Shown here piece after piece: positions 26,268 through 43,256 of a DNA stretch of 64,000 nucleotides. The stretch is from an uncultured Bacteroidales bacterium (GTDB lineage: Bacteria > Bacteroidota > Bacteroidia > Bacteroidales > Paludibacteraceae). The position numbers were made by a program, and so were the translations under genes. The notes under the pieces were generated by a model, which worked only from the letters and a program-made list of their open reading frames with translations, ran no database searches and had not been told where the DNA came from. The stretch spans positions 248,001 through 312,000 of the forward strand of contig CASDOZ010000001.1 of assembly GCA_949282265.1 (NCBI GenBank), read 5' to 3'. How positions within the stretch are numbered: the stretch's first letter is position 1; every line of letters begins with the position of its first letter.

Positions 26268-26299
26268 TTTGGCTGCTCGTTTTTTCAAATCTAATTTTG
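26268..26299 (+). promoter_or_regulatory. Promoter of the hybrid regulator gene
   Basis: TTTG (26268-26271), exactly 20 bases, TAATTTTG (26292-26299), 26 bases before the chosen ATG at 26326. A full consensus promoter, which implies separate and probably constitutive expression of the sensor. It also rules out the longer reading frame that would begin inside it. Confidence 0.8.
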
Positions 26300-26325
26300 T
26301 GTTGGGAAAGGAAGGCTATATTTTT

Positions 26326-29106
26326 ATGAAGAAATATTTGTTTGCTGTTGTTTTCATGCTGTTGCTTTTTGGCTTTTTTTCCTGCAATTGCGGGCACGAC
26401 AAAAAAGTCATTGCATTTTCACAGTGTAGCGAAGATGAATGGCGCACGGCCATGAACAATGAGGTCTTGCAGGAAGCCTCGTTCCATCCTGATGTTGAAA
26501 TACGTATTAAAAGCGTCAAGGATGATACGCAGCAGCAAATCCGCGATGTGGAACAGTTCATTGCGGACAAAGTCGATTTGATTGTACTTGCGCCGAACGA
26601 GGCTATTCCGTTGACTTCGGTGGTGGAAAAGGCGATGGATGCAGGTATTCCCGTCGTGTTGGCCGACCGCAAGATAGCCTCGAAACGCTATACGGCGTTC
26701 GTCGGGGCGGACAACTATGAAGTCGGGCGCGATGCGGGTATTTACATAGCGGAACGTTTGAAAGATGGCGGCCGGATTCTTGAGGTCAGGGGCTTGGATG
26801 GCTCCACGCCTGCGACCGAACGTCATAATGGCTTTATGAACGTTATCGCTATGCATCCTGGAATAGAGGTAGTTTCGTCGGTTGATGGTGCCTGGTTCCG
26901 CGATGTGGCCAAAAAAAAGACGGAGCAGTTCCTTGCAGGAAACCAACCTGTCGATTTGATTTTTGCCCATAACGACCAGATGGCTCTGGGTGCTTATGAA
27001 GCCTACCGCGATGCAGGTCTGGAGCGTCCGGATATTATCGGCATAGATGCTCTGGCCGGGCCGAGCGGCGGCATACAAATGGTTTTGGACGATGTGATTG
27101 ATGCCACATTCTTTTATCCGACCGGCGGCGAGCGTGTCGTGCAAACAGCTCTGCGCATTTTGAATGGGGAATCGTATAGCCGAGATAACAAGCTTTATAC
27201 TGCAGTCGTGGACAAAACCAATGCTCGTGTATTGAAGTTGCAGACTGACCAGGTTACAGCCAAACAAAACCAGCTCCAACGTCTGAATGAGATATTGAAC
27301 GAAAGTCTAATGCAGTATTCTGTACAACGTTTTCTGCTTTTCGGCTCGTTGGCGGTTTTGTTGATAATTTGCGTACTGTTGCTTTTGCTGGTACGGGCTT
27401 ATCGTAAATCGAACCGCACCAACAAGTTGCTTGAGAGTCAGAATATAGCCATAAACAAACAAAAAGCCGAATTGGCCGAACAGCGTGATCAGCTGATGGT
27501 GCTTTCCAAAAATCTGGAAGAAGCCACACAGGCCAAACTGGTGTTTTTTACCAATATATCGCATGAATTCCGCACGCCGCTGACTCTGATTTCCGGCCCG
27601 CTTGACACTTTGATGGAACGTGAACAATTGAGTCAAGAAGGCCGGCAACTGGCATTGTTGATACAGAAGAATGTGCAAATATTGCAGCGGCTTATCAATC
27701 AGATTATTGATTTCCGTAAAGTTGAAAACGGAAAGATGAACATGTCTTTTGCACAGGGCGATTTTAAGCAATTCCTTTGCGGCATAACCGAATCATTCCG
27801 CAATTTGGCAGTTACCAAACATTTACATTTGAGTTTTATAGCAGCTGATGATGATTTTTTGTGTTGGTATGATGCGGAAAAGGTGGAAAAGATATTCTTC
27901 AATTTATTGTCAAATGCTTTTAAATATACGCCGGAGAATGGTAAGATCACGGTGGAGCTTGAAAAGAGGCTTTGCGACAATGGCTCTATGCTGCAAGTCA
28001 GGATTATCGATACCGGCGTTGGCATAAAAGCGGAACATGTACCACATATTTTTGAACGCTTTTATAAAGCGGATGAAGTGGCTTCTGGTTCGGGCATTGG
28101 CCTTGCTTTGACCAAGATGCTTGTCGAACTTCATGGTGGCACTATTTCGGTGCAAAGCGAATTAGGCAAAGGCAGCACGTTTGTTGTTGTGCTTCCGTTT
28201 TTGCAGTCGAAAAATAGTTCGCCGATGGAATCGGCGAATATATCGGAAATACCTGCCGAAAGTACTGTTTCAGGTACAGTTTTGGTAAAGAATGAACCTC
28301 TTTCTGATAAAACCATCAGCGAAAGTTCTGAAAAACCACTTATACTTATTGTAGAGGATAATACAGATGTTCGTTTGTACGTAAAAACTCTTTTGTCGGA
28401 CGATTATGATTTGGTGGAGGCAGCTGATGGTTTAGATGGTTTCCAAAAGGCCGTGCAGCACATGCCTGACCTTATTATAAGCGATGTGATGATGGATGGC
28501 ATGGATGGTTTTGAGTTGTGCCGTCAATTGAAAGGTGATATTTCGACTTGCCATATACCGGTTATGTTATTGACGGCTTGCTCGCTTGATGAGCAACGTG
28601 CGCAAGGCTTTGAAAATGGAGCGGATGCATATATTCCAAAACCATTTAATGAGAATTTGTTGAAGGTCCGCATCCGCAGCATGATAGCCAACCGGAAGCG
28701 TCTCAAAGAATACTTTAACCGGAATTTAACTTTTGGAGATGGTAAGACGCGAATAACTGAAATGGACAAGAGTTTTATAGACAAGTTCAGGAAAATCGTC
28801 ATGGATAATTTGTCGGACAACGAACTGAATGTCGATGAAATTGGACGTAATCTGGGTATGTCGCGCATACAGCTCTATCGGAAAATTAAAGCTCTCACAA
28901 ACTATGCACCCAATGAACTGGTGCGTGCAATTCGTTTGAAGGAAGCCGGGCGGCTATTGATAAGTTCCGGATTGACTGTTGCTGAAATTGCTTATGATAC
29001 GGGTTTTTCATCGCCATCTTATTTTACCAAATGTTTTAAGGAATATTTCAATGAAAGTCCGACTGAATATCAAAACCGTTTGAAACACAGCCGTGGCGAT
29101 AGTTGA
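26326..29106 (+). CDS. Hybrid two-component regulator sensing fructose
   Basis: 926 residues from ATG 26326 (MKKYLFAVVFML). After an N-terminal hydrophobic signal/anchor (FFSC), residues about 30-325 form a periplasmic LacI/ribose-binding-protein-like sensor (KVIAFSQCSEDEWRTAMN, VDLIVLAPNEAIPL, VDLIFAHNDQMALGAYEAY). A membrane segment (FLLFGSLAVLLIICVLLLLLV), a HisKA H-box (FFTNISHEFRTPLTLISGP) and an ATPase follow (FNLLSNAFKYTPENGK, DTGVGI, GSGIGLALTKM). The receiver has its Asp in DLIISDVMMDGMDG, and an AraC HTH ends the protein (LTVAEIAYDTGFSSPSYFTKCF). This matches the Bacteroides fructan regulator type that binds monomeric fructose. It should activate the upstream locus. Confidence 0.93.
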   Translation: MKKYLFAVVFMLLLFGFFSCNCGHDKKVIAFSQCSEDEWRTAMNNEVLQEASFHPDVEIRIKSVKDDTQQQIRDVEQFIADKVDLIVLAPNEAIPLTSVVEKAMDAGIPVVLADRKIASKRYTAFVGADNYEVGRDAGIYIAERLKDGGRILEVRGLDGSTPATERHNGFMNVIAMHPGIEVVSSVDGAWFRDVAKKKTEQFLAGNQPVDLIFAHNDQMALGAYEAYRDAGLERPDIIGIDALAGPSGGIQMVLDDVIDATFFYPTGGERVVQTALRILNGESYSRDNKLYTAVVDKTNARVLKLQTDQVTAKQNQLQRLNEILNESLMQYSVQRFLLFGSLAVLLIICVLLLLLVRAYRKSNRTNKLLESQNIAINKQKAELAEQRDQLMVLSKNLEEATQAKLVFFTNISHEFRTPLTLISGPLDTLMEREQLSQEGRQLALLIQKNVQILQRLINQIIDFRKVENGKMNMSFAQGDFKQFLCGITESFRNLAVTKHLHLSFIAADDDFLCWYDAEKVEKIFFNLLSNAFKYTPENGKITVELEKRLCDNGSMLQVRIIDTGVGIKAEHVPHIFERFYKADEVASGSGIGLALTKMLVELHGGTISVQSELGKGSTFVVVLPFLQSKNSSPMESANISEIPAESTVSGTVLVKNEPLSDKTISESSEKPLILIVEDNTDVRLYVKTLLSDDYDLVEAADGLDGFQKAVQHMPDLIISDVMMDGMDGFELCRQLKGDISTCHIPVMLLTACSLDEQRAQGFENGADAYIPKPFNENLLKVRIRSMIANRKRLKEYFNRNLTFGDGKTRITEMDKSFIDKFRKIVMDNLSDNELNVDEIGRNLGMSRIQLYRKIKALTNYAPNELVRAIRLKEAGRLLISSGLTVAEIAYDTGFSSPSYFTKCFKEYFNESPTEYQNRLKHSRGDS

Positions 29107-32011: not shown

Positions 32012-33286
32012 ATGAAAGATATTTTTGAAACAATCAAATCAATTCCTGGTCCGTTAGGACAATATCAAGGTAATGCAGATGGTTATTTCATGTTCCCAAA
32101 GTTGGAAGGTGAGATTGGCCCCGAAATGGTTTTTAACGGGAAAAAAGTTCTGAACTGGAGTCTGAACAACTATTTGGGCTTAGCGAATCATCCGGAAGTG
32201 AGGAAAGCCGATGCGGAAGGTGCAGCCAAGTTTGGCCTGGCAGCTCCGATGGGAGCTCGTATGATGTCTGGTGATACAGTTTATCACAAGAAATTGGAGC
32301 AGGATTTGGCAGATTTTGTTGGAAAACCGGCTGCTTATTTGATGAATTTTGGCTATCAGGGCATGGTGTCCATTATCGATGTAATGTGTAGTCGTTTCGA
32401 TGTCATTGTCTATGATTCGGAAGCCCATGCTTGTATTATGGACGGAATTTTCTTGCACAAGGCCAAAGGAGGCAAAAGCTTCGTTTATCCACATAATGAC
32501 ATCGATCGCTGCGAAAAGATGTTGAAGATGGCCGAAAACTATATTGACAAGGAAGGCGGAAAAGGCGGTATCTTGGTTGTTACTGAAGGTGTGTTTGGTA
32601 TGGCTGGCGATCTTGGTGCTTTGGACAAAATTGTTGCTTTGAAGAAAAAACACAGTTTCCGTATCTTGGTGGATGATGCACATGGTTTCGGAACTATGGG
32701 TAAAACTGGTGCCGGAACCCCCGAGCATTTTGGTTGCCAAGATGGAATTGACTTGCATTTCTGCACATTTGCAAAAAGTATGGCCGGTATCGGCGCTTTC
32801 ATCGCTTCCGAGCGTGAAATCGTTGACCATTTGCGTTTCAACATGCGTTCCCAGATTTTTGCAAAATCGCTGCCGATGCCAATGGTGATTGGAGCCATGA
32901 AGCGTTTGGAATTGCTGAAAACAGAAAATTCCCTGCGTGAAAAACTTTGGACAATTACACGTACCTTACAGGAAGGTTTGCGTAGCAAAGGATTCGATTT
33001 GGGACACACGCAATCACCTGTTACGCCGGTTTATTTCAAAGGTGGCGTAGGCGAAGGCACCAACATTGTTGTAGATTTGCGTGAAAATTATGGCATATTC
33101 TGTTCTATCGTTGTTTATCCGGTTGTACCGAAAGGTGTTTTGATGCTCCGCATTATACCGACAGCTGCACATACGTTGGAACACGTGGAACGTACCATTA
33201 ACGTATTCAGTGAGGTTAAGGAAAAACTTGCCGCTGGATATTATGATCATGAAATGCCGAATATGAACTTGATAAACAAAGGTTAA
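32012..33286 (+). CDS. Alpha-oxoamine synthase, probable cysteate acyltransferase (sulfonolipid)
   Basis: 424 residues, PLP fold type I, in the family of serine palmitoyltransferase, 2-amino-3-ketobutyrate ligase and 8-amino-7-oxononanoate synthase. NYLGLANHPEV, GARMMSGDTVYHKKLEQDLADF, ILVDDAHGFGTMGKTGAG and the PLP lysine in HFCTFAKSMAGIGAFI are all present. Family membership is certain. That it condenses cysteate with an acyl thioester (first step of capnine/sulfobacin synthesis) is inferred from the next gene, a cysteate-synthase-like enzyme, and the reductase in the same cluster. Serine palmitoyltransferase activity is the main alternative. A terminator follows, so it may be transcribed apart from the next gene. 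Confidence 0.75.
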   Translation: MKDIFETIKSIPGPLGQYQGNADGYFMFPKLEGEIGPEMVFNGKKVLNWSLNNYLGLANHPEVRKADAEGAAKFGLAAPMGARMMSGDTVYHKKLEQDLADFVGKPAAYLMNFGYQGMVSIIDVMCSRFDVIVYDSEAHACIMDGIFLHKAKGGKSFVYPHNDIDRCEKMLKMAENYIDKEGGKGGILVVTEGVFGMAGDLGALDKIVALKKKHSFRILVDDAHGFGTMGKTGAGTPEHFGCQDGIDLHFCTFAKSMAGIGAFIASEREIVDHLRFNMRSQIFAKSLPMPMVIGAMKRLELLKTENSLREKLWTITRTLQEGLRSKGFDLGHTQSPVTPVYFKGGVGEGTNIVVDLRENYGIFCSIVVYPVVPKGVLMLRIIPTAAHTLEHVERTINVFSEVKEKLAAGYYDHEMPNMNLINKG

Positions 33287-33298
33287 AGTTTTAGGAGA

Positions 33299-33335
33299 CG
33301 GAACGACGTGCATGTGTATGTCGTTCCGCTTTTTG
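33299..33335 (+). terminator. Terminator after the oxoamine synthase gene
   Basis: CGGAACGAC (33299-33307) pairs with GTCGTTCCG (33320-33328) around a 12-base loop, followed by CTTTTT. It suggests the downstream genes have a separate start of transcription or depend on read-through. Confidence 0.82.
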
Positions 33336-33431
33336 GCAAAACAGCATGTCCGCAAAGCCGACACAACTTTTTTGTTGCCGGTCTTTGTGTATTTGTATGT
33401 ATCATAAAATATATCATATTCAGAAAAACTT

Positions 33432-34664
33432 ATGAAATATCAACTCAAATGTAAAAAATGCGGTTACATCACGTCGGACTTTGCAACTTGGTTCAAACAA
33501 GAGCAAACATGCCCAAAATGCGGTAGTAAACATTCGGAGGTGGAGTATTTTACCGATTATGCCAAACTTAAAGATGTCTTTAAAACCCGGCCGGAAAACT
33601 TCTGGGCATATTTTGATTTCTTGCCCTTAATGGACAGGAAAAACATAATTACCTGCAATGAAGGAACACCCGATCTGGAAGAATGGGATTTCTTGGAGAA
33701 GTTTGCGGCGGAGCGTTACGGCGTGGAGTGCAAGGTGGTGGTTTGTCGTAACGACCTGAATGGCGGCACGCAGACTTTCAAGGATGTGGCCGGTGCACTT
33801 GGGGCTTCGATATTTCAGGAAAACGGTGTCCGTGAATATTGCGTGGCATCTACCGGTAATACGGCGACGGCATTTGCCAAATATTTGGCGATCGCCGGTA
33901 TTAAATTTACCAATTTCGCACCGTCCGATATAAATCCAGATTCGGTGGAGGAAATCCGTGCTTTGGGGCAGGAAGTCGTCTTGTCAGAAGGGAATTATGC
34001 GCAGGCCAAGAAGGAAGCGGCCGATTTTGCCGCACAAAACCATGTGCTCATCTCCACCGGCAACATTGACCCTATCCGCGTGGAGGCTAAAAAAACGATG
34101 GCCTTTGACTTCATGCGCCAGTTGGGGCAGTTACCAGATGTGTATATGCAAGCTGTCGGCGGCGGTACAGGCCCGATAGCGTTGGACAAAGGTGTGCGTG
34201 AATTGCAGAGCCATTTTGCTGGCCTGAAAACACCGCGCATGTTGCTTGCGCAACAGGATTTATGCGACCCGATGGTGCAAGGTTGGGAGATGGCGCGTGC
34301 CAAAGGCTTTCCGGAAGGCTTTGAAAACGACTATCCGACCATAGCGAATCCGCAGACGAAAGTTTCTATCTTGTCGGCCGGCGTTCCTGCCATGTTTCCT
34401 GTTATTGCGCCTATCGTCAAGAAGACGCAGGGTGATTTCTTGCGCGTTAAGGAGGCGGAATTACCTGCTTATGCACGGAAAGTATTCGATGAAAGGGGCA
34501 TTTATCTTGGTCCGGCATCCATTGTGTGCATAGCCGGATTTTATCAAGCGCTTGCCGAAGGAAAAATCCGCACGGGCGAAACGGTGTTGCTCAACATAGG
34601 CGAAGGTGCCGGACGCGCATCTGCTTTTGTGGAAGAAACCAAAAAAGCTGCCCCTATTTATTGA
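33432..34664 (+). CDS. Threonine-synthase-like enzyme, probable cysteate synthase
   Basis: 410 residues, PLP fold type II. An N-terminal zinc ribbon (CKKCGY near residue 10 and CPKCGS near 33) precedes the catalytic domain. The PLP lysine is in GGTQTFKDVAGALGAS, the phosphate/substrate loop in YCVASTGNTATAFAKYLA, and the glycine-rich loop in QAVGGGTGPIALDKG. Cysteate synthases, which make L-cysteate from phosphoserine and sulfite, belong to the threonine synthase family. This member differs from ordinary ThrC in the loops named, has no thrA/thrB neighbours, and sits directly after an oxoamine synthase. The cysteate assignment is inferred from that context. Confidence 0.7.
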   Translation: MKYQLKCKKCGYITSDFATWFKQEQTCPKCGSKHSEVEYFTDYAKLKDVFKTRPENFWAYFDFLPLMDRKNIITCNEGTPDLEEWDFLEKFAAERYGVECKVVVCRNDLNGGTQTFKDVAGALGASIFQENGVREYCVASTGNTATAFAKYLAIAGIKFTNFAPSDINPDSVEEIRALGQEVVLSEGNYAQAKKEAADFAAQNHVLISTGNIDPIRVEAKKTMAFDFMRQLGQLPDVYMQAVGGGTGPIALDKGVRELQSHFAGLKTPRMLLAQQDLCDPMVQGWEMARAKGFPEGFENDYPTIANPQTKVSILSAGVPAMFPVIAPIVKKTQGDFLRVKEAELPAYARKVFDERGIYLGPASIVCIAGFYQALAEGKIRTGETVLLNIGEGAGRASAFVEETKKAAPIY

Positions 34665-34713
34665 TGGCCCCGTTCGGGTTCTTGTTATTGAATGGATATG
34701 AAACCACTAACTT

Positions 34714-35358
34714 ATGGGAAATTTATATAATTTATTGATGCAGGATGTCCGCTTTGAGGAAGCGTTGAAAGCCTGCATGAATTGCGGTGTATGTACGGCC
34801 ATCTGCCCGGCAGCAGAATTTTATCCGTACGACCCGCGGAAAATATGCGATATTGTACAACGCCGGAACGAGGAGGAGATTGAAAACTTGCTCCGTTCCG
34901 ACACGATTTGGTATTGCGGGCAATGCATGTCGTGCAAGACACGTTGCCCCCGCGGCAATATACCCGGCTCATTGATAAACATATTGCGCAAGGTTTCACA
35001 GGAGTTGGGCTATTTTGCCGACAGCCGTATGGGCCGCCAGCAATGCAGCCTTGTCGATGGGGTGGGGCGGAACATTCTGGAAATAGGTTATTGCGTCCAT
35101 CCTGACCGCATTGATCCGGCAAAGCATGTCGAGCAAGGGCCAATATGGAAATGGTATCGCGAAAATATCGAGGAAATAGCCCCTAAATTAGGTGCCAATT
35201 ATCATGGCGATGGTCCGGGTGCCTTGCGCACTATCCGGAAAGAAAATTTGGAAGAAATACGCAAAATCTTTGAAGCAACCGGTGGAATCGAGCTTTTGGA
35301 GCAAATTAAACGCGAAGAGCCGGATGTTGCCAAATCCCACAAACATAAGATTGATTGA
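34714..35358 (+). CDS. Hdr-like 4Fe-4S dicluster subunit (HdrC type)
   Basis: 214 residues, soluble. Two [4Fe-4S] motifs are spaced as in HdrC/QmoC-type subunits: CMNCGVCTAICP (about residue 21) and CGQCMSCKTRCP (about residue 68), each Cys-x2-Cys-x2-Cys-x3-Cys. The C-terminal ~110 residues are helical with no known domain (ENIEEIAPKLGANYHGDG, EEIRKIFEATGGIELLEQI). It would wire electrons between the flavin subunit and the catalytic CCG subunit encoded 3 bases downstream. First gene of the Hdr-like set, 49 bases after the cysteate-synthase-like gene. Confidence 0.85.
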   Translation: MGNLYNLLMQDVRFEEALKACMNCGVCTAICPAAEFYPYDPRKICDIVQRRNEEEIENLLRSDTIWYCGQCMSCKTRCPRGNIPGSLINILRKVSQELGYFADSRMGRQQCSLVDGVGRNILEIGYCVHPDRIDPAKHVEQGPIWKWYRENIEEIAPKLGANYHGDGPGALRTIRKENLEEIRKIFEATGGIELLEQIKREEPDVAKSHKHKID

Positions 35359-35361
35359 ACG

Positions 35362-36414
35362 ATGAAACGATACTGGAATGAATATCAGAAAAAAATAGCC
35401 GACGACAAGTTTTTCTATGAACGGAGTTGTATCCGTCAGACTTTTTTCCCAGGTTCGGAAGCCGCTTTCCTGAAAATGTTGCGTGAGGAACTTGGCAAGG
35501 ATATTTATGATGAAGCAAACCAGCATACGTGTACTGGTATTGGCTATCATTCGGATATTGTCCCCTTGCAGACGACCATGACGGTTGTCGCGCGGCTTTT
35601 CGCACTGATGACCGAGGCGGGCTATGAAAACTATGTACCTTCGTGCGTCACTTCGTTCGGCGTGTTCACGGAAATGGTGGAAATGTGGAAACACAACCCG
35701 GAGTTGCTGGAAAAAACACGTAAGATTCTGTATGATACGACCGGACGCACTTTTGAAATCCCGAAAAATATTGCGCATCCATCGGATATTATTTACAAGT
35801 TTCGCTATGAGTTGAAGCAGAAAATGAAATACCAGTTGGTGAACCGTTTTACGGGCAAGCCGTTGCGTGTGGTGGAACATATCGGATGCCATTATGCCAA
35901 GATATTCCCGAAAGCTGGTGTCGGGAATGCCGAATTCCCTTATGTGTTGGCCGGCATGATAGAAGCATGGGGAGGCGAAGTCATCGACTATCCTGAACGC
36001 CGCCATTGTTGCGGTTTCGGTTTCCGCCAATATTTAGTACAGGAAAACCGCGGTTATTCGATAGCCAATTCTAAAAAGAAATTTGAATCCATGGAGCCCT
36101 ATGAGCCCGATTTCATCGTGGCAAATTGCCCGGGATGCACTATGTTTCTTGACAAATGGCAATACACGATAGCCGAGATGGAAAACAAAACCTACGACAA
36201 AAATGGTTACGGAATCCCAGTGCTTTCATATGAAGAAATGGCAGGTTTGCTACTGGGTTATGACCCTTGGAAGTTAGGTTTGCAGTTGCATCAGGTGCAG
36301 GCAGAGCCGTTGCTGAATAAGATAGGCATAGCTTATAATCCAAACGAAAAATTTACAGGTGTTTCCGGGAAAATCTTGCCAAGACCAGAAAAACCGCATA
36401 ATTTATTGGTCTAA
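35362..36414 (+). CDS. Hdr-like CCG-domain subunit (HdrB type)
   Basis: 350 residues. The C-terminal CCG domain has GCHYAKIFP, then RRHCCGFGFR, then ANCPGCTMF, the Cys pattern that binds the special [4Fe-4S] pair in heterodisulfide reductase HdrB. The N-terminal half has HTCTGIGYHSD and VPSCVTSFGVF, a partly changed first CCG motif lacking the Cys-Cys-Gly triplet. In HdrB this domain splits a disulfide. Here the substrate is unknown. Tightly linked to the genes on both sides (3 and 24 bases). Confidence 0.85.
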   Translation: MKRYWNEYQKKIADDKFFYERSCIRQTFFPGSEAAFLKMLREELGKDIYDEANQHTCTGIGYHSDIVPLQTTMTVVARLFALMTEAGYENYVPSCVTSFGVFTEMVEMWKHNPELLEKTRKILYDTTGRTFEIPKNIAHPSDIIYKFRYELKQKMKYQLVNRFTGKPLRVVEHIGCHYAKIFPKAGVGNAEFPYVLAGMIEAWGGEVIDYPERRHCCGFGFRQYLVQENRGYSIANSKKKFESMEPYEPDFIVANCPGCTMFLDKWQYTIAEMENKTYDKNGYGIPVLSYEEMAGLLLGYDPWKLGLQLHQVQAEPLLNKIGIAYNPNEKFTGVSGKILPRPEKPHNLLV

Positions 36415-36438
36415 TCTGAAAACATAAAAGAAAAACAA

Positions 36439-37488
36439 ATGGACGGAAAGATAATATCCATACAGGTTGCCATAATAGGTGGAGGCCCTGCTGGTATAGA
36501 AGCAGCTTCTATTTTAAGTCGTTATGGCGTTCAAGTTTCCTTGTTTGAAGGGGAATCCAAATGGGCGCATAATATTGGGAACAAGTTCAAATTGTTTCCA
36601 GATTTCTCATCAGCTGATGAATTAGTGCAAACATTATCTCAAAAAATAGTTGAAAACCAGATTCCTGCTTATTTAAGTACAAAAATAGTTGCTCTGGAGA
36701 AGCAGAAAAATGCTTGGGTTTTGACCGATGAGCAGGGGAGAAGTTATGTGGCTGATACTGTTTTGTTGGCCACTGGTTATGACATATTTGATGCCAAGCG
36801 TAAAGAAGAATTAGGCTATGGTATTTACAACGGTGTTATGACCTCTGTTGATTTGGAAGCCATGTTGAAAACTGGCAAAATAACAAATGTTTTGGGTGAA
36901 CAGCCTCAATGTGTTACATTTTTGCAGTGTGTTGGTTCGCGTGATGAAAAAATAGGCAACCATTATTGTTCCAAGGTTTGTTGTGTTACGGCAGTGAAAC
37001 AAGCCATAGAAGTAAAAAAAATGTCTCCGCAGACAGATGTGTTTGTCTTTTACATGGATTTGCGCATGTGGGGGCAAGGTTTTGAGGAACTTTATCGAGA
37101 AGCGCAGGAAAAGTACAGTATCCGTTTTGTGCGGGGGCGGATTTCGGAGGCGGCCTCCACTTTTGATGACCGTGTGCAAATCAAGGCGGAAGATACGCTG
37201 GTAGGCCAGCCCTTGAAGATGAGTACCGATTTGCTGGTGTTGATGGTTGGTATGGAAGCCTCGTGCGGAACGAAAAAACTTGCAGCTTGTTGCGGAATTG
37301 ATGGGGAATATGGTTTTGCGCTTAGCAAACAGCCGCATTTGGCTGATAACCAGACAGCACAGCGAGGTTTGTTTGTGGCTGGTGCTTGCAAGCGGCCGAT
37401 GAGTATTTCGGATGCAATTAACGATGCGCGAGCAGCAGCTACAGAGATTGTAGAATATTTAAAAATCGTGCCGGCAAATAAGAAATAA
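36439..37488 (+). CDS. Hdr-like FAD subunit (HdrA/QmoA type)
   Basis: 349 residues. FAD dinucleotide fold at the N-terminus (VAIIGGGPAGIEAASILSRYGVQVSLFEGE) and a second site (ADTVLLATGYDIF). The HdrA signature, a Cys set for a [4Fe-4S] cluster, is in QCVGSRDEKIGNHYCSKVCCVTAVKQA. The C-terminal GLFVAGACKRPMSISDAINDARAAA closes the FAD site. It lacks the N-terminal extension and C-terminal ferredoxin pairs of methanogen HdrA, so it resembles the short QmoA-type. The next gene starts 2 bases downstream. The first half looks AT-richer than its neighbours. Confidence 0.87.
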   Translation: MDGKIISIQVAIIGGGPAGIEAASILSRYGVQVSLFEGESKWAHNIGNKFKLFPDFSSADELVQTLSQKIVENQIPAYLSTKIVALEKQKNAWVLTDEQGRSYVADTVLLATGYDIFDAKRKEELGYGIYNGVMTSVDLEAMLKTGKITNVLGEQPQCVTFLQCVGSRDEKIGNHYCSKVCCVTAVKQAIEVKKMSPQTDVFVFYMDLRMWGQGFEELYREAQEKYSIRFVRGRISEAASTFDDRVQIKAEDTLVGQPLKMSTDLLVLMVGMEASCGTKKLAACCGIDGEYGFALSKQPHLADNQTAQRGLFVAGACKRPMSISDAINDARAAATEIVEYLKIVPANKK

Positions 37489-37490
37489 GT

Positions 37491-37862
37491 ATGGATTTTG
37501 GATTTACTATATCGAAGCCACGCTCCATCGAACCGACGGAAGCCGGTAAGGAACAGTTGCGGTTGTTGGAAGAACAAGTGCCGACATTCAGGCGATGCAT
37601 GAACTGCGGTGGTTGTACGGCTACCTGTTCCGCGGGTCATTTTATTAATTTCAACATTCGGAAAGTACATAATCTGTACCGCTGGGGGCAGTACAAGGAA
37701 TTGGACGAGGAACTGCAAAAATGCATGTTGTGCGGCAAGTGTACACTTGTGTGCCCGCGCGGTGTTAATTTGCGTTCGCTCATTATCCATTTGCGGAAAG
37801 CCTTGAATAAGGATCATTTGTCCAACGATTTCCAACATTTTATACGGAATAACAACCGATAA
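37491..37862 (+). CDS. Hdr-like small ferredoxin subunit (HdrC type)
   Basis: 123 residues with two [4Fe-4S] motifs: CMNCGGCTATCSAGH (about residue 37; the fourth Cys is followed by Ser where Pro is usual) and CMLCGKCTLVCPRG (about residue 78). It is a second HdrC-type electron relay in the same operon. Starts 2 bases after the flavin subunit and lies 25 bases before the membrane subunit, so it likely links those two. Confidence 0.85.
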   Translation: MDFGFTISKPRSIEPTEAGKEQLRLLEEQVPTFRRCMNCGGCTATCSAGHFINFNIRKVHNLYRWGQYKELDEELQKCMLCGKCTLVCPRGVNLRSLIIHLRKALNKDHLSNDFQHFIRNNNR

Positions 37863-37887
37863 AAAGATTAACAAGCAATTAGAATTT

Positions 37888-39669
37888 ATGTCATCATATT
37901 TTCATCCTTTCATATTACCTTTTTGTATAGGCACATTGGTCTTGTTCGTGATTATTGCCGTAAAGTTCTATCGGTGGATAACCACGCTTGACCGTAAGCA
38001 AAAGAAAAACGTCTGGATGTCCTTGCTGACAGTTCGCGTTTTTCCTGCTTTATGGCGGATAGTCAAGGAAATTGTTAAGGAGGTATTATTGCATGTGAAT
38101 ATCACTAGGTACAATTGGCGTATGGGATACATGCATCGGAGTATTGCTTTGGGTTGGTTTTTGTTGATTGTTACTGGATTTGTGGAAACTTTGTTCCATT
38201 TCAGGGGAGGAGGCCATCTTCCGTGGTTGGGTATTTTTTTCCGTTTCTTTGTACGTGATTACACTTACGGTATTTCCCGCGTCTGGGCGGATGTGATGGA
38301 TTTATTATTGCTTTATGTACTTTCTGGCGTTTCCATCGCTATTTTTAAGTCTATTTATTCACGTGTGGTCGGCATACGTAAAAATACTAAGTTGCGTTGG
38401 TTCGACATTTGCCTGCGTTATTCTTTGTGGCTGATATTCCCTATGCGGTTGCTGTCAGAAAGTTGTACGGCGGCTTTGACCGGCAACGGCGGTTTCCTGA
38501 CGCAGGGAATCGGGGACATGCTTCCTACGGAATTTGCCCAAGTCATGGAAGTGCCGTTCTGGACGGCCTATTCCACCTGTTTGTGTGTATTTTTTGTGCT
38601 CTTCCCTTTCTCGCGCTACATGCACATTTTCACCGAGCCACTTTTGATTGTGTTCCGCAGTCTGGGTGTGCGCGAAAGCAGTCAGCCGACTGGATACACG
38701 CGTATGGAGTTGAATGCTTGCTCGCGTTGCGGCATTTGCATAGACGGTTGTCCGCTCGACAAGGAGTTGAAGATAAACGATATACAGGGCGTTTATCTGT
38801 TGCGCGATGTGCGTCACGGTTTGCCGCACCGTAATGCAACGGAAAACTGTCTGATGTGCGACCAGTGCGTTGTGGATTGTCCGGTCGGCATTGAAATTAC
38901 GGAGATACGCAAGCAGGAACGCAACAAAGGTGCGTTGGATACGCATGACAATTACCGTTTCCTCGATTCGATACAGTCTTTCAATGCAATCGGGCGTATC
39001 GCCTATTTTGGCGGTTGCATGTCGCATTTGACGCCTGGCGTAACCGAGTCGATGAAAAAGATTTTTGATGCGGTCGGGCAAAAGTATTGGATGATGGACG
39101 AGGACAAGACAATTTGTTGCGGTCGTCCGTTGTTGCAGCAGGGCTTTATAGCGCAGGCTGCCGAATTGCGTCGGAAAAATGCCCATTTGATTGTGGAAAG
39201 TCATGCGCAATACTTGGTAACTTCTTGCCCGATTTGTTACCAGTCGTTCAAGAAAGAGTATAATTTGCCGATAAAGGTCATTCACCACACTGAATATCTG
39301 GCCGCTTTGATACGGTTGGGCAAGCTGAAACCGCACAAGACTGGCTTGAAAGTGGCTTATCACGATCCGTGCGAGTTGGGGCGCGGTTGCAATATTTACG
39401 ATGAGCCGCGTGAGGTTCTGCAAGCTGTGGCCGAACTGGCTCGCGTGCAGAAAGAGCGCGAACACAGCATTTGTTGCGGCCACAGCCTTGGCAATACGGC
39501 TTTGGATGTGGAAAAGCAGGACAAGGTGCGTGATGCGGCTTTGCGTAATTTGAAGGCAGACCATCCGGATTTGATAGCTACGGCTTGCCCCATGTGTAAA
39601 AAAGCTTTCCAGCGTGACAGGTATACGACCGTTAAAGATATTGCCGAACTTATTGCGGAGCAGTTATGA
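37888..39669 (+). CDS. Membrane-anchored HdrD-like iron-sulfur reductase
   Basis: 593 residues. The N-terminal ~250 residues hold about five membrane helices (FCIGTLVLFVIIAVKFY, ALGWFLLIVTGFVETLF, VMDLLLLYVLSGVSIAIF, and others), like the quinone-reactive b-type subunits HdrE/DsrM/NarI. A ferredoxin region follows (CSRCGICIDGCP and CLMCDQCVVDCPVG). The C-terminal half has two full CCG domains (YFGGCMSH, TICCGRPLL, SCPICYQ; then HDPCELGRGC, SICCGHSLG, ACPMCKK). It is a fusion of HdrE-like and HdrD-like parts that should connect the menaquinone pool to a disulfide or sulfur substrate. The end overlaps the next start by four bases (ATGA). Confidence 0.87.
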   Translation: MSSYFHPFILPFCIGTLVLFVIIAVKFYRWITTLDRKQKKNVWMSLLTVRVFPALWRIVKEIVKEVLLHVNITRYNWRMGYMHRSIALGWFLLIVTGFVETLFHFRGGGHLPWLGIFFRFFVRDYTYGISRVWADVMDLLLLYVLSGVSIAIFKSIYSRVVGIRKNTKLRWFDICLRYSLWLIFPMRLLSESCTAALTGNGGFLTQGIGDMLPTEFAQVMEVPFWTAYSTCLCVFFVLFPFSRYMHIFTEPLLIVFRSLGVRESSQPTGYTRMELNACSRCGICIDGCPLDKELKINDIQGVYLLRDVRHGLPHRNATENCLMCDQCVVDCPVGIEITEIRKQERNKGALDTHDNYRFLDSIQSFNAIGRIAYFGGCMSHLTPGVTESMKKIFDAVGQKYWMMDEDKTICCGRPLLQQGFIAQAAELRRKNAHLIVESHAQYLVTSCPICYQSFKKEYNLPIKVIHHTEYLAALIRLGKLKPHKTGLKVAYHDPCELGRGCNIYDEPREVLQAVAELARVQKEREHSICCGHSLGNTALDVEKQDKVRDAALRNLKADHPDLIATACPMCKKAFQRDRYTTVKDIAELIAEQL

Positions 39670-40451
39670 GAAAATTCCAATCCATATTGATTACGGGTGC
39701 CGGTTCTGGCATTGGTGAAGCCATTGCCTGCCGCTTTGCCAGGCAGGGGAGTAGTCTGATGTTGGTTGGGCGCAATGCGGAACGTCTGGAAGCCGTTACA
39801 AAGCAGTGTATCGCCTTGGGCGGGAAAGCCGTGTGGCGTCAAGTTGATATGGCAAATCCCGATTCCATCGATACTTTTGTGAATGAATTGAAGGAGCAGG
39901 GACGTGTTTTTGACTGCCTGGTGCTGAATGCCGGCATCTCGCAGCGCGCGCTGGCATTGGAAACCGATTTCAGCGTGGACCGCAAAATCATGGAAACGAA
40001 TTACTTCGGGCCTGTCTGTCTGACCAAAAAGCTGGGTTATATGCTGAAAAGTAATCCCTATACGGCCATTGCCGTTACCAATTCCATTTCCGGGCTGTTC
40101 GGATTCCCGTTGCGTTCGGCATATTGTGCATCCAAGCACGCCTTGTTCGGTTTTTTTGAAACCTTGGAACTGGAAAACGACAACATATACGTCACTTTCC
40201 TGATTCCGGGACGCATTAACACGCCTATCAGCAAAAGTGCGGTTCTGGGCAACGGCGAAACATACGGGCAGATGGACAGCGGGCAGGCCAATGGCCTTGA
40301 TGTGGGAAAATGTGCGGAGATAGCCGTCCGTGCCATTGAGAAAGGCAAGCACCGGCAGCTCATTGGCGGCAAGGAACTGCTGATGGTACATTTCAAAAAA
40401 TGGATACCGCCCTTGTTCCGCCGGCTGGCACGCAAGGTGAGCGCGACATGA
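39666..40451 (+). CDS. Short-chain dehydrogenase, candidate 3-keto-sulfonolipid reductase
   Basis: 261 residues. Rossmann NAD(P) motif ILITGAGSGIGEAIACRFA, VLNAGIS, catalytic Ser in NSISGLFG and Tyr/Lys in SAYCASKHALFGFFE. The sequence is close to the DHRS7/3-ketosphinganine-reductase-like branch. In sulfonolipid synthesis the oxoamine synthase product is a 3-keto intermediate (3-dehydrocapnine) that must be reduced, and this is the obvious candidate. Translation is coupled to the Hdr-like membrane subunit through an ATGA overlap. Function is inferred from context; the family is clear. Confidence 0.85.
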   Translation: MRKFQSILITGAGSGIGEAIACRFARQGSSLMLVGRNAERLEAVTKQCIALGGKAVWRQVDMANPDSIDTFVNELKEQGRVFDCLVLNAGISQRALALETDFSVDRKIMETNYFGPVCLTKKLGYMLKSNPYTAIAVTNSISGLFGFPLRSAYCASKHALFGFFETLELENDNIYVTFLIPGRINTPISKSAVLGNGETYGQMDSGQANGLDVGKCAEIAVRAIEKGKHRQLIGGKELLMVHFKKWIPPLFRRLARKVSAT

Positions 40452-40489
40452 TGCCAGATAAGTTTGGAGATTCTAAAAACATAATAATT

Positions 40490-41554
40490 ATGAAAGAGAA
40501 AGTTATTTGCGGAATGCAGCAGGTAGGCATTGGCGTTGAAAACGTGCATGAAGCCTTCAAATGGTATATGGAAGCCTTCGGGTGTAATGCCAAGATTTTG
40601 GATGCGGAAGGCACGGCCGAACGCATGTTGCCCTACACGGGAGGCAAGCCGCAGGATCGTTGGGCGATTCTGGCCTACAACTTGCGCGGTGGCGGCGGTT
40701 TTGAAATATGGCAACCGCAAGGGCGTGCCTTGCGTTATCTGCAAGAGCCGGTACGTTTGGGCGATTTGGGCATCTTGTGTGCAAAAATCAAGGCAAAAGA
40801 TATTCAGTGGGCATATAACCATTTGAAACAGGTTATCGGGGCGAAAATCCTTTGCGAACCGGTAACGGCCTTGTCGGGCAGGAAACATTTCTTCTTGCTG
40901 GACGTGTATGGCAATTTGTTCCAGGTGGAAGAAGACAATTACGTTTTCATCGACCAAAACAAGGCAACCGGCGGCGCCAATGGTGCATTCATCGGTGTTT
41001 CGGATATGGAAAAATCCATGGCTTTTTATGGCAAGCTACTGGGATTTGACCGCGTGGAATACGATGAAACTGGCGTTTTTGATGATTTGCAGGGCGTTGA
41101 AGGCGGCGACAAACGCTTGCGCCGTGTCATGCTGAACCGCACCAAACCCATGCAAGGGCCGCTCAGCGAGATTATGGGTACTGCTCACATAGAACTCGTG
41201 CAAGCATTGGAAGGAACGCCCAAGAAGCTGTACGAGGGTCGCTGGTGGGGCGACCCTGGATTTATCCACTTGTGTTTTGATGTGCGGAACATGGAAGCCG
41301 TGAAAGTCGATGCCGAGGCGCTCGGCCACCCGTTCGTGTGCGACAGCGGCGCGGACTTCAAGATGGGCGAAGCAGATGGCCATTTCACCTACGTGGAAGA
41401 CCCGGATGGAACCCTGATTGAGTTTGTGGAAACCTTTAAAATACCGGTTTTGAAAAAAATGGGCATTTACCTGCACTTGGACGGCAAGGACGACAAAAAG
41501 CCCCTGCCGCGCTATATAACCAAAGCATTGCGTTTCCTGGAAGTAAAAGGTTAA
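40490..41554 (+). CDS. Double VOC-domain protein (glyoxalase/dioxygenase fold)
   Basis: 354 residues from ATG 40490; upstream in-frame starts lie in or near the SDR coding end. Two VOC modules: residues about 8-145 (VGIGVENVHEAFKWYMEAFGCN to FLLDVYGNLFQVEED) and 160-320 (GAFIGVSDMEKSMAFYGKLLGFDRVEYDE to FTYVEDPDGTLIEFVETF). The final Glu of DPDGTLIEFVE is a typical metal ligand. VOC proteins isomerise, cleave or oxygenate small molecules. The role here is unknown, but it is the last gene of the Hdr/SDR operon, 38 bases after the SDR. Confidence 0.82.
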   Translation: MKEKVICGMQQVGIGVENVHEAFKWYMEAFGCNAKILDAEGTAERMLPYTGGKPQDRWAILAYNLRGGGGFEIWQPQGRALRYLQEPVRLGDLGILCAKIKAKDIQWAYNHLKQVIGAKILCEPVTALSGRKHFFLLDVYGNLFQVEEDNYVFIDQNKATGGANGAFIGVSDMEKSMAFYGKLLGFDRVEYDETGVFDDLQGVEGGDKRLRRVMLNRTKPMQGPLSEIMGTAHIELVQALEGTPKKLYEGRWWGDPGFIHLCFDVRNMEAVKVDAEALGHPFVCDSGADFKMGEADGHFTYVEDPDGTLIEFVETFKIPVLKKMGIYLHLDGKDDKKPLPRYITKALRFLEVKG

Positions 41555-41563
41555 TTTTCAGTT

Positions 41564-42325
41564 ATGGGAAACGACAATATCGTACTCCGGACGGAGCATT
41601 TGGTGAAGAAATACGGCAAACGTACCGTTGTGAATGATGTCAGCATCGAGTTGCATCAGGGTGAAATTGTGGGCTTGCTGGGGCCGAACGGTGCCGGCAA
41701 AACGACTACGTTCTACATGACGACCGGCCTGATAACGCCCAATGAGGGCAAAATCTTCCTGGACGAAACGGACATTACCGATTTCCCGATGTACAAGCGC
41801 GCCCAGAACGGGATTGGATATTTGCCGCAGGAAGCATCTGTCTTCCGCAAAATGTCCGTGGAAGACAACCTGAAAGCCGTGCTTGAAATGACTTCGTTCT
41901 CAAAGGCTTACCAAGCGCAAAAACTCGAACAGCTCATCAAGGAGTTCAACCTCGGGCATGTGCGCAAGAACCTTGGCGACCGCCTGTCTGGCGGCGAAAG
42001 GCGGCGTACTGAGATTGCGCGCTGCCTGGCCATAGAGCCGCGCTACATCATGCTGGATGAGCCGTTTGCCGGTGTGGACCCGATTGCCGTGCAGGAAATA
42101 CAGGATGTCGTTTGGAAGCTGAAAGACAAGAATATTGGCATCCTGATTACCGACCACAACGTGGACGAAACGCTGATGATTACCGACCGCGCCTATTTGC
42201 TGTTTGAAGGGAAAATCCTTTTCCACGGGACGCCCGAAGAACTGGCCGCCAACCCGATTGTGCGGAAAAACTACTTGGGGCGCGATTTTGAGTTGAAACG
42301 TAAAAGCAGACCGACAGACGACTGA
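41564..42325 (+). CDS. lptB: LPS export ABC transporter ATPase
   Basis: 253 residues. Walker [23 protein letters not shown] signature [16 protein letters not shown], Walker [15 protein letters not shown] and switch His in [11 protein letters not shown]. The [13 protein letters not shown] form and overall length fit LptB, the motor that pulls lipopolysaccharide from the inner membrane toward the outer membrane. It follows the VOC gene by 9 bases and precedes rnz by 4, so it is probably part of a longer unit. Confidence 0.92.
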
Positions 42326-42329
42326 CAGC

Positions 42330-43256
42330 GTGAACAATACGGTTACCATATTCGGATGCGGCTCCTCCTTGCCCACGCGCACCAACTTTCCGAGTTGCCA
42401 AGTTCTAGAGCTGCGCAACAAGCAGTTTATGATTGACTGCGGCGAGGGTGCACAAATCCGCATGAGGCAGATGAACTTCCGGACGGCGCGCCTCGGGCAT
42501 ATCTTCATATCGCATTTGCACGGCGACCATTGCTTCGGCCTGATGGGGCTTATATCCTCGTGGGGAATGCTCGGCCGTACCGCCGAACTGCACATACATG
42601 CGCAACGCGACCTGGAACCGCTACTCGGTGCGCAGTTGCGCTATTTCTGCGACAAAATGCCGTACAGCGTCATTTTCCATGCCATTGACCCCGCAAGGCA
42701 CGGACTGGTGTACGAAGACCGCACCGTGTGCGTCTATTCCTTGCCGTTGAAACACCGCGTGCCTTGTTGCGGCTTCCTGTTCGAGGAGAAACCGCAGGAC
42801 AGGCATATCCTGCGCGAAATGATCGATGCTTACCAAATCCCGATTGCGTACATCCCGCGCATAAAAAAGGGCGAGGACTATGTGTTGCCGGACGGCACGC
42901 GCATCCCGAACGGACGCCTGACAACGCCGCCCACGCCTCCGATCCGTTATGCCTACTGCTCGGATACGGCCTACAACGAAGACCTTGTCCCGCTGATTCA
43001 GGGCGTGGACTGCCTCTACCACGAGGCGACTTTTGAAGAAGAGTTCCTGAAACGTGCGCAGGAAACGCAACACAGCACGGCATCGCAGGCGGCAACCATT
43101 GCACGCAAGGCCGGTGTGAAAAAACTGATTATCGGGCATTTCTCCGCCCGCCACAGCAACCAGGAAAATTTATTGAAAGAAGCCCGCGCCATTTTCTCGG
43201 ACACGGTGCTCGGCATGGACAAAGGTGTTTATCCTATTGTAGGTGAGGTGAAATAA
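42330..43256 (+). CDS. rnz: Ribonuclease Z
   Basis: 308 residues starting with GTG at 42330. Metallo-beta-lactamase fold with the zinc motif SHLHGDHCFGLMG. Further signs are FMIDCGEGAQIRMRQM, YCSDTAYNEDLV, YHEATFEEEF and IIGHFSARHSN, all typical of tRNase Z, which trims tRNA 3' trailers. Starts 4 bases after lptB. Confidence 0.95.
   Translation: MNNTVTIFGCGSSLPTRTNFPSCQVLELRNKQFMIDCGEGAQIRMRQMNFRTARLGHIFISHLHGDHCFGLMGLISSWGMLGRTAELHIHAQRDLEPLLGAQLRYFCDKMPYSVIFHAIDPARHGLVYEDRTVCVYSLPLKHRVPCCGFLFEEKPQDRHILREMIDAYQIPIAYIPRIKKGEDYVLPDGTRIPNGRLTTPPTPPIRYAYCSDTAYNEDLVPLIQGVDCLYHEATFEEEFLKRAQETQHSTASQAATIARKAGVKKLIIGHFSARHSNQENLLKEARAIFSDTVLGMDKGVYPIVGEVK

Follow-up and report, generated by a model that had tools for sequence, protein, structure and literature searches.

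The locus described here raises the question of why genes for a heterodisulfide reductase (Hdr)-like complex lie within a set of genes for sulfonolipid biosynthesis. It is part of a stretch of 64,000 nucleotides (nt), called the window below (positions 248,001 to 312,000 of contig CASDOZ010000001.1, assembly GCA_949282265.1), from an uncultured Bacteroidales bacterium of the family Paludibacteraceae. Nine open reading frames (ORFs) at 32012-41554, all intact and all on the + strand, form one tight run:

32012..33286, + strand, SulA/CapB-like cysteate acyl carrier protein (ACP) acyltransferase, an alpha-oxoamine synthase (AOS) of 424 amino acids (aa)
33432..34664, + strand, CysS, threonine-synthase-related, cysteate synthase-like enzyme dependent on pyridoxal phosphate (PLP), PALP fold
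34714..35358, + strand, HdrC1-like 2x[4Fe-4S] protein with two CxxCxxCxxxC motifs
35362..36414, + strand, HdrB-like subunit (Pfam CCG) with one complete CCG (non-cubane cluster) motif and one degenerate motif
36439..37488, + strand, HdrA-core flavoprotein of sHdrA size (349 aa), with a full-length match to 6TJR
37491..37862, + strand, HdrC2-like 2x[4Fe-4S] protein with two CxxCxxCxxxC motifs (Fer4 families)
37888..39669, + strand, HdrDE, with an HdrE/NarI-like N-terminal membrane part, 2x[4Fe-4S] and two complete CCG motifs
39666..40451, + strand, short-chain dehydrogenase (SDR; adh_short), candidate 3-ketocapnine reductase
40490..41554, + strand, VOC protein with two VOC domains, 354 aa, without assigned function

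The run is very probably a sulfonolipid (capnine-type) biosynthesis cluster, and on balance we think that its Hdr-like complex supplies the sulfite for cysteate. The sulfonolipid pathway had already been proposed in an initial annotation of the DNA, and it is now supported by the scores and lysines of SulA, a separate threonine synthase (ThrC) in the genome, the active-site loop of CysS and the recurring linkage of the genes. All nine ORFs were found intact and co-directional as first described, and family scans of the proteins agreed with the domains assigned to them. The intergenic distances are 145 nt (SulA-CysS), 49 nt (CysS-HdrC1), 3 nt (HdrC1-HdrB), 24 nt (HdrB-HdrA), 2 nt (HdrA-HdrC2) and 25 nt (HdrC2-HdrDE), and HdrDE and SDR overlap by 4 nt. 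One detail of the initial annotation changed. The VOC gene is present, but the start given at 40400 was replaced by the ATG at 40490, 38 nt past the SDR gene. This is the most likely start because the earlier one would overlap SDR by 52 nt and because 34 full-length relatives have 351-365 aa, close to the 354 aa of the window protein. The zinc ribbon at the N-terminus of CysS gave a match, but a weak one below the Pfam cut-off.

Condensing enzyme and cysteate synthase-like protein

The product of the gene at 32012 scored 614 bits against SulA of A. finegoldii (7U7H), a cysteate acyl-ACP transferase, and 542 bits against the cysteate-C-fatty acyltransferase 28eh, compared with 217 bits against serine palmitoyltransferase (Spt; 3A2B). 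Its Lys255 aligns with the Schiff base lysine Lys251 of SulA and its Lys285 with Lys281. The latter, in place of an alanine of Spt, sets SulA apart from Spt according to an excerpt of PMC9304779. The protein is strongly indicated to be a SulA orthologue with predicted cysteate-dependent formation of 3-ketocapnine, and on the distance between 217 and 614 bits we reject a serine palmitoyltransferase.

For the product of the gene at 33432, the initial annotation had left room for a protein that clusters with true threonine synthases. The outcome went against ThrC. The same genome carries a separate ThrC of 433 aa with the loop PSGNFGN on another contig (C5), which scored 281.8 bits, above the cut-off, where CysS scored 69.6 bits, below it. 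In an alignment with solved enzymes, CysS and 26 relatives have the loop Q-A-[VIL]-[GAS]-G-G-[TS]-[GS] (residues 240-247 of the window protein) and Asn388. The window loop QAVGGGTG with Asn388 corresponds to QAVGSGTG with Asn in the cysteate synthase 9k3c, the one solved cysteate synthase on which the loop comparison rests, and the ThrC enzymes 2zsj and 1uim have PVGNAGN and Thr at these positions. On the basis of the separate ThrC and the cysteate-synthase loop residues we reject a true threonine synthase at 33432. Overall scores weigh on the other side: CysS stays below the cut-off of the NCBIfam cysteate synthase family TIGR03844 (113.6 bits versus 324.9), scores more to the best ThrC model (157 bits, cut-off 303), and its nearest PDB chains are ThrC. 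Because its score stays under the TIGR03844 cut-off and its nearest PDB chains are ThrC, we name the protein cysteate synthase-like and not a full member of the family; activity on phosphoserine and sulfite is predicted.

Alistipes and Odoribacter are reported in a part of PMC10191378 to use an archaeal-type cysteate synthase homologue and not CapA, which fits in kind with the CysS of the window. Outside the order, CysS matched 0 of 80 genomes at E 1e-40, including 46 that match SulA strongly. CysS is therefore rejected as a phylum-wide enzyme; an empty result by itself carries no weight, but the same query matched 55 of 295 genomes of the order. Other Bacteroidota probably use a different cysteate synthase.

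The remaining two enzymes of the run are less specific. The SDR has the motifs TGxxxGIG at 10 and YxxxK at 153, which are common to classical SDRs and hence weak evidence. It lies directly 3' of SulA-CysS in several relatives and is a candidate 3-ketocapnine reductase. A fold search with the VOC protein matched two-domain VOC proteins of differing chemistry and names no reaction.

A different form of the condensing enzyme was observed in another class of the phylum. There, genome G254 encodes a protein of 1143 aa (L206:1146-4577) in which an acyl-AMP ligase, a carrier protein and an oxoamine synthase are fused, the latter domain being 47% identical to the window SulA. It is possibly a self-loading fatty-acyl condensing enzyme. 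AOS frames of similar length were seen in genomes G179 and G219, and the G179 stretch has a GC content of 69.7%.

Subunits of the Hdr-like complex

The five Hdr-like subunits (34714-39669) are encoded in the order C1-B-A-C2-DE. This is the order of sHdr, with HdrDE in the place of B2. In an excerpt of PMC6067878, the sHdr gene order is given as hdrC1B1A-hyp-hdrC2B2; the complex yields sulfite in thiosulfate oxidisers. The definition of sHdr types I and II follows a part of PMC11582611. Residues 10-345 of the window HdrA match residues 4-344 of 6TJR over the full length (180.8 bits), whereas the match to five HdrA chains of the methanogen type is limited to approximately 105-337 (139-195 bits). 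We take 6TJR to be the sHdrA of Hyphomicrobium denitrificans; its database label is only that of a flavoprotein domain protein. In HdrB, C176, CC216-217, C256xxC259, C23, C57 and C95 are kept in 40 aligned rows with one exception at C256, and the degenerate first CCG motif is also common to these rows. The Fe-S and CCG cysteines of HdrDE, as well as His83 and His246, are invariant in 10 aligned rows, and motifs and hydrophobic segments indicate the membrane part, the 2x[4Fe-4S] and the two complete CCG motifs listed above. By analogy, the complex may work like sHdr and form sulfite as predicted, though we do not class it as sHdr.

In two other lineages, PdxJ and PdxA of vitamin B6 synthesis adjoin HdrDE (L065:8329-9042 and L070:11060-12154). 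Both SulA and CysS depend on PLP; the adjacency is possibly due to chance.

Recurrence of the cluster in Bacteroidales

A CysS alignment scan gave 138 relatives, of which 80 loci were kept, several of them short contigs. Nearly all of the 80 belong to uncultured gut, rumen or sediment Bacteroidales. In their flanks SulA was found in 58 loci, SDR in 44 and VOC in 28; at least one Hdr gene is present in 29. Four orders occur. The first is SulA-CysS-C1-B-A-C2-DE, followed by SDR-VOC only in the window and in the sister locus L103. The second is SulA-CysS-SDR-VOC-C1-C2-DE-B-A (e.g., L134, L150 and L155). In the third, C1-B-A-C2-DE precedes SulA-CysS, with SDR-VOC present for example in L170 and L176 and not in L168, L172 and L179. 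In the fourth, SulA-CysS-SDR faces A-B-DE-C2-C1-VOC (L165). Because the set recurs rearranged in other genomes, it is more than a chance arrangement. A tree of 40 HdrDE proteins, from which three duplicate genomes had been dropped, contains a branch with 100/99 support that has 28 modules linked to SulA/CysS or VOC and one solo module on one side.

The expectation that the genes stay together across genomes held for Bacteroidales, where the set recurs, but not for sulfonolipid loci at large: among 20 further SulA loci that were fetched, Hdr was found in none and CysS in one. Alistipes or Odoribacter is named in none of the 80 kept record titles (of 138 relatives). The cluster is therefore the arrangement of one lineage and not a general sulfonolipid locus. 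Ten other genes that recur at CysS loci, mostly at those without Hdr, have no common theme; their families are thioredoxin-like, AMP-ligase, peptidase, SurA-like, epimerase and DapB, and two have no family.

CysH in place of Hdr at divergent loci

Twenty loci whose CysS belongs to a divergent group (39-50% identity) were fetched; four are short contigs (4-8 kb). None of the 20 contains an Hdr gene. Instead, nine contain a CysH-like gene, encoding an adenosine 5'-phosphosulfate/3'-phosphoadenosine 5'-phosphosulfate (APS/PAPS) reductase, and in eight of these nine SulA is also present. No locus of L063-L182 gave a CysH match. CysH makes sulfite, and sulfite is the co-substrate of cysteate synthase. 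The gene order is CysS-CysH-SulA in L183, L184 and L189 and SulA-CysH-YeiH-like-CysS in L185. L190, in which every gene was scanned, carries the run VOC-CysH-CysD-CysN-sulfate symporter-CysQ-like-CysS, and L191 and L192 give CysH matches too, their genes agreeing in size and order with those of L190. VOC and CysH-like matches accompany SulA and CysS in L199, and L200 has a CysH match with no SulA in the stretch. Judged by its genes, the CysH-CysD-CysN-symporter run is a sulfite-making pathway. Some of the genomes behind these loci (G342, G409, G460 and G522) carry HdrDE elsewhere.

The gene between CysH and CysS in L185 (8876-10348) encodes a PF03601 membrane protein in a sulfonolipid cluster. 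PF03601 is presumably the YeiH type. A section of PMC11582611 considers YeiH as a possible exporter of sulfite.

Distribution of sulfite sources among genomes

Presence of the genes was recorded in 295 genomes of the order, giving SulA in 209 (E 1e-90), HdrDE in 89 (E 1e-60), CysS in 55 (E 1e-40) and CysH/CysD, by PF01507, in 215 (E 1e-20). The genomes were treated as independent though they are related, and presence depends on thresholds and assembly completeness. SulA occurs in 84 of the 89 genomes with HdrDE and in 125 of the 206 without (p 3e-10). The 209 SulA genomes divide into 55 with Hdr and CysH/D, 29 with Hdr only, 114 with CysH/D only and 11 with neither, a complementarity of the two sources with p 5e-6. 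For the 86 genomes without SulA the corresponding numbers are 5, 0, 41 and 40. The clearest difference is seen where CysH/D is missing: Hdr was found in 29 of 40 such genomes with SulA versus 0 of 40 without (p 9e-13), and the 29 represent 17 families. Among genomes with CysH/D, Hdr is present in 55 of 169 with SulA versus 5 of 46 without (p 0.003).

A chosen set of 66 genomes showed PF01507 over the cut-off in none of 8 close-CysS genomes versus 49 of 58 others. From the 80 CysS loci, 50 genomes were taken, 26 picked with and 24 without HdrDE or HdrB beside CysS. HdrDE matched in 42 of them, PF01507 strongly (at least 100 bits) in 15, both in 10 and neither in 3 (p 0.04); in L105, one of these three, the contig carries HdrC1 and HdrB.

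Among the SulA genomes that gave no match to HdrDE or CysH/CysD at these thresholds, G298, G328, G353 and G494 are 95-100% complete. Such genomes either have a third sulfite source or contain genes that were missed.

Proposed sulfite supply and competing explanations

The initial annotation had treated the Hdr subunits and the VOC protein as accessory parts. The Hdr subunits are now given a proposed role in sulfite supply. In the following scheme, each catalytic step, the source of the sulfur and the direction in which electrons flow are all inferred. HdrC1-B-A-C2-DE would deliver sulfite, most probably through oxidation of protein-bound sulfane sulfur at the non-cubane clusters of HdrB and HdrD, and the electrons would pass via flavin adenine dinucleotide (FAD) and the [4Fe-4S] subunits to the HdrE-like membrane part and to menaquinone. 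CysS would join sulfite and O-phosphoserine to L-cysteate, SulA would condense cysteate and acyl-ACP to 3-ketocapnine, and the SDR would reduce 3-ketocapnine to capnine, with N-acylation by an enzyme outside the cluster. The VOC protein would serve the lipid half and not the sulfite half, since it is found with Hdr-type and CysH-type clusters alike. The potential of the sulfide/sulfite couple is close to that of menaquinone, and a low-flux biosynthetic oxidation is feasible. The detailed form of the proposal, in which a membrane-tethered sHdr-like complex oxidises sulfide-derived sulfane sulfur to sulfite without LbpA and passes the electrons to menaquinone, is put forward tentatively; it falls somewhat short of an even chance.

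Several observations weigh against sulfite supply by an sHdr-like complex. LbpA is an essential partner of sHdr, and no extra LbpA was seen: each of 8 close-CysS genomes has one GcvH-family gene, that of the window genome lies on another contig, and LbpA was not among the ten window proteins scanned. The hyp gene of sHdr is missing from the 2 nt gap between HdrA and HdrC2, and B2 is fused to the membrane part and not separate. Ten genes adjoining Hdr modules (7 solo, 3 linked) include no member of the TusA, DsrE, rhodanese or LbpA families. No Hdr gene is found in the flanks of 51 of the 80 CysS loci; when 24 genomes from loci without adjoining HdrDE were examined, 17 had HdrDE elsewhere and 7 had none. 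Of 20 HdrDE loci that were fetched, SulA is nearby in 5 and not in 15, and 11 of the 12 solo HdrDE modules form a separate clade across the 100/99 branch. At the genome level, 55 SulA genomes carry both sulfite sources and 11 carry neither, although some of the 11 are 98-100% complete; SulA genomes also have CysH/D more often than the others, and over the 295 genomes there is neither an association of CysS with HdrDE (15 of 55 versus 74 of 240, p 0.74) nor an overall avoidance between HdrDE and CysH/D (p 0.20). The lack of PF01507 in 8 of 8 close-CysS genomes does not generalise, because 15 of the 50 had strong CysH/D matches.

Part of this would be expected if the complex were a general quinone-linked thiol/disulfide or ferredoxin electron-transfer complex whose link to the lipid genes is regulatory or historical, with no role in sulfite formation. 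Hdr in SulA genomes that already possess CysH/D, the 15 HdrDE loci that are not beside SulA and the module neighbours without a sulfur-oxidation partner agree with such a function. However, on this view one would not expect genomes without CysH/D to carry Hdr in 29 of 40 cases when they have SulA and in 0 of 40 when they do not, nor CysH to replace Hdr in other CysS clusters, and we consider such a function unlikely, if still worth serious attention. The main rival is a reductive release of sulfite, in which an HdrED-like membrane complex would cleave thiosulfate or an S-sulfonate (e.g., S-sulfocysteine) with electrons from menaquinol, in the manner of a disulfide reduction. Two complete CCG motifs together with a membrane part are the make-up of the reductive HdrDE, the genomic data that point to sulfite supply are silent on direction, and the missing extra LbpA also suits it. 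The soluble half, with an sHdrA-like protein of full length and the sHdr subunit order, argues against a reductive reaction, which we regard as rather improbable. That the locus encodes a sphingolipid or other oxoamine pathway beside a true threonine synthase is hardly credible: the ranking of CysS closer to ThrC among family models (both below cut-off) and PDB chains is outweighed by the SulA scores, Lys285, the separate ThrC, the cysteate-synthase loop and the linkage of the family to SulA and CysH.

Relation to known systems

The SulA/CapB/CFAT pathway of Alistipes finegoldii, Capnocytophaga and Chryseobacterium gleum shares with the window a SulA with the diagnostic lysines and a ketoreductase-type SDR. 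PMC11211663 reports, for C. gleum and A. finegoldii, that the kcr genes are unlinked to cfat and Cys. In the window the corresponding genes lie together, joined by Hdr and VOC.

The window resembles sHdr of Hyphomicrobium denitrificans (type I, shdrC1B1AHC2B2) in the C1-B1-A-C2-B2-like order and in the size of HdrA, and differs, besides the features weighed above, in its hosts, which are lipid-making Bacteroidales. Among relatives on plasmids, the nearest is an operon of Picosynechococcus sp. PCC 7003 (L203:11221-16961) with the same five-subunit order, C1-B1-A-C2-B2. Its HdrB, HdrA and HdrC1 are 42.6%, 39.4% and 47% identical to those of the window, and its HdrB has the same degenerate first CCG motif. 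In contrast to the window, its B2 is soluble with two CCG motifs, and no lipid genes occur in the 25 kb examined. The operon is followed by an FAD oxidoreductase that is weakly similar to type III sulfide:quinone oxidoreductase (83 bits, cut-off 525). Methanogen HdrABC and HdrDE have domain types and non-cubane cluster motifs in common with the window, but their HdrA chains comprise 643-671 aa versus 349 aa, and the HdrB comparison gave 83-106 bits.

A search of the open literature found no paper joining sulfonolipid with heterodisulfide reductase and none combining sulfonolipid, sulfite and cysteate; most subscription papers lay outside the search, so this is not proof. Modulation of inflammation has been reported for sulfonolipids of gut Bacteroidota (PMC9304779 and PMC11211663, in excerpts). 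If the Hdr-like complex makes sulfite, gut sulfide would be linked to an immune-active lipid, and hosts unable to reduce sulfate could still make sulfonolipids from it. An orphan module present in 89 of 295 genomes of the order would gain a function, as a previously unassigned sulfite route in these anaerobes that replaces the usual sulfite-making enzyme. Hdr-like sulfur oxidation would then reach beyond energy metabolism into biosynthesis, as an assimilatory sulfur oxidation.

Neighbouring genes

Rfam and tRNA scans of the 64-kb window gave no matches. On the 3' side of VOC follow lptB (41564, 9 nt gap; over the NCBIfam cut-off) and a gene named RNase Z-like by eye (42330, 4 nt gap). The pair (41564-43256) is found in the same order at the sister locus L103 and may be transcribed together with the lipid genes. 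Upstream of the run, a long ORF at 26269-29106 joins, by eye, a sugar-binding-type sensor, a histidine kinase, a receiver and an AraC-type DNA-binding part; this hybrid two-component protein gene adjoins a carbohydrate kinase-like gene.

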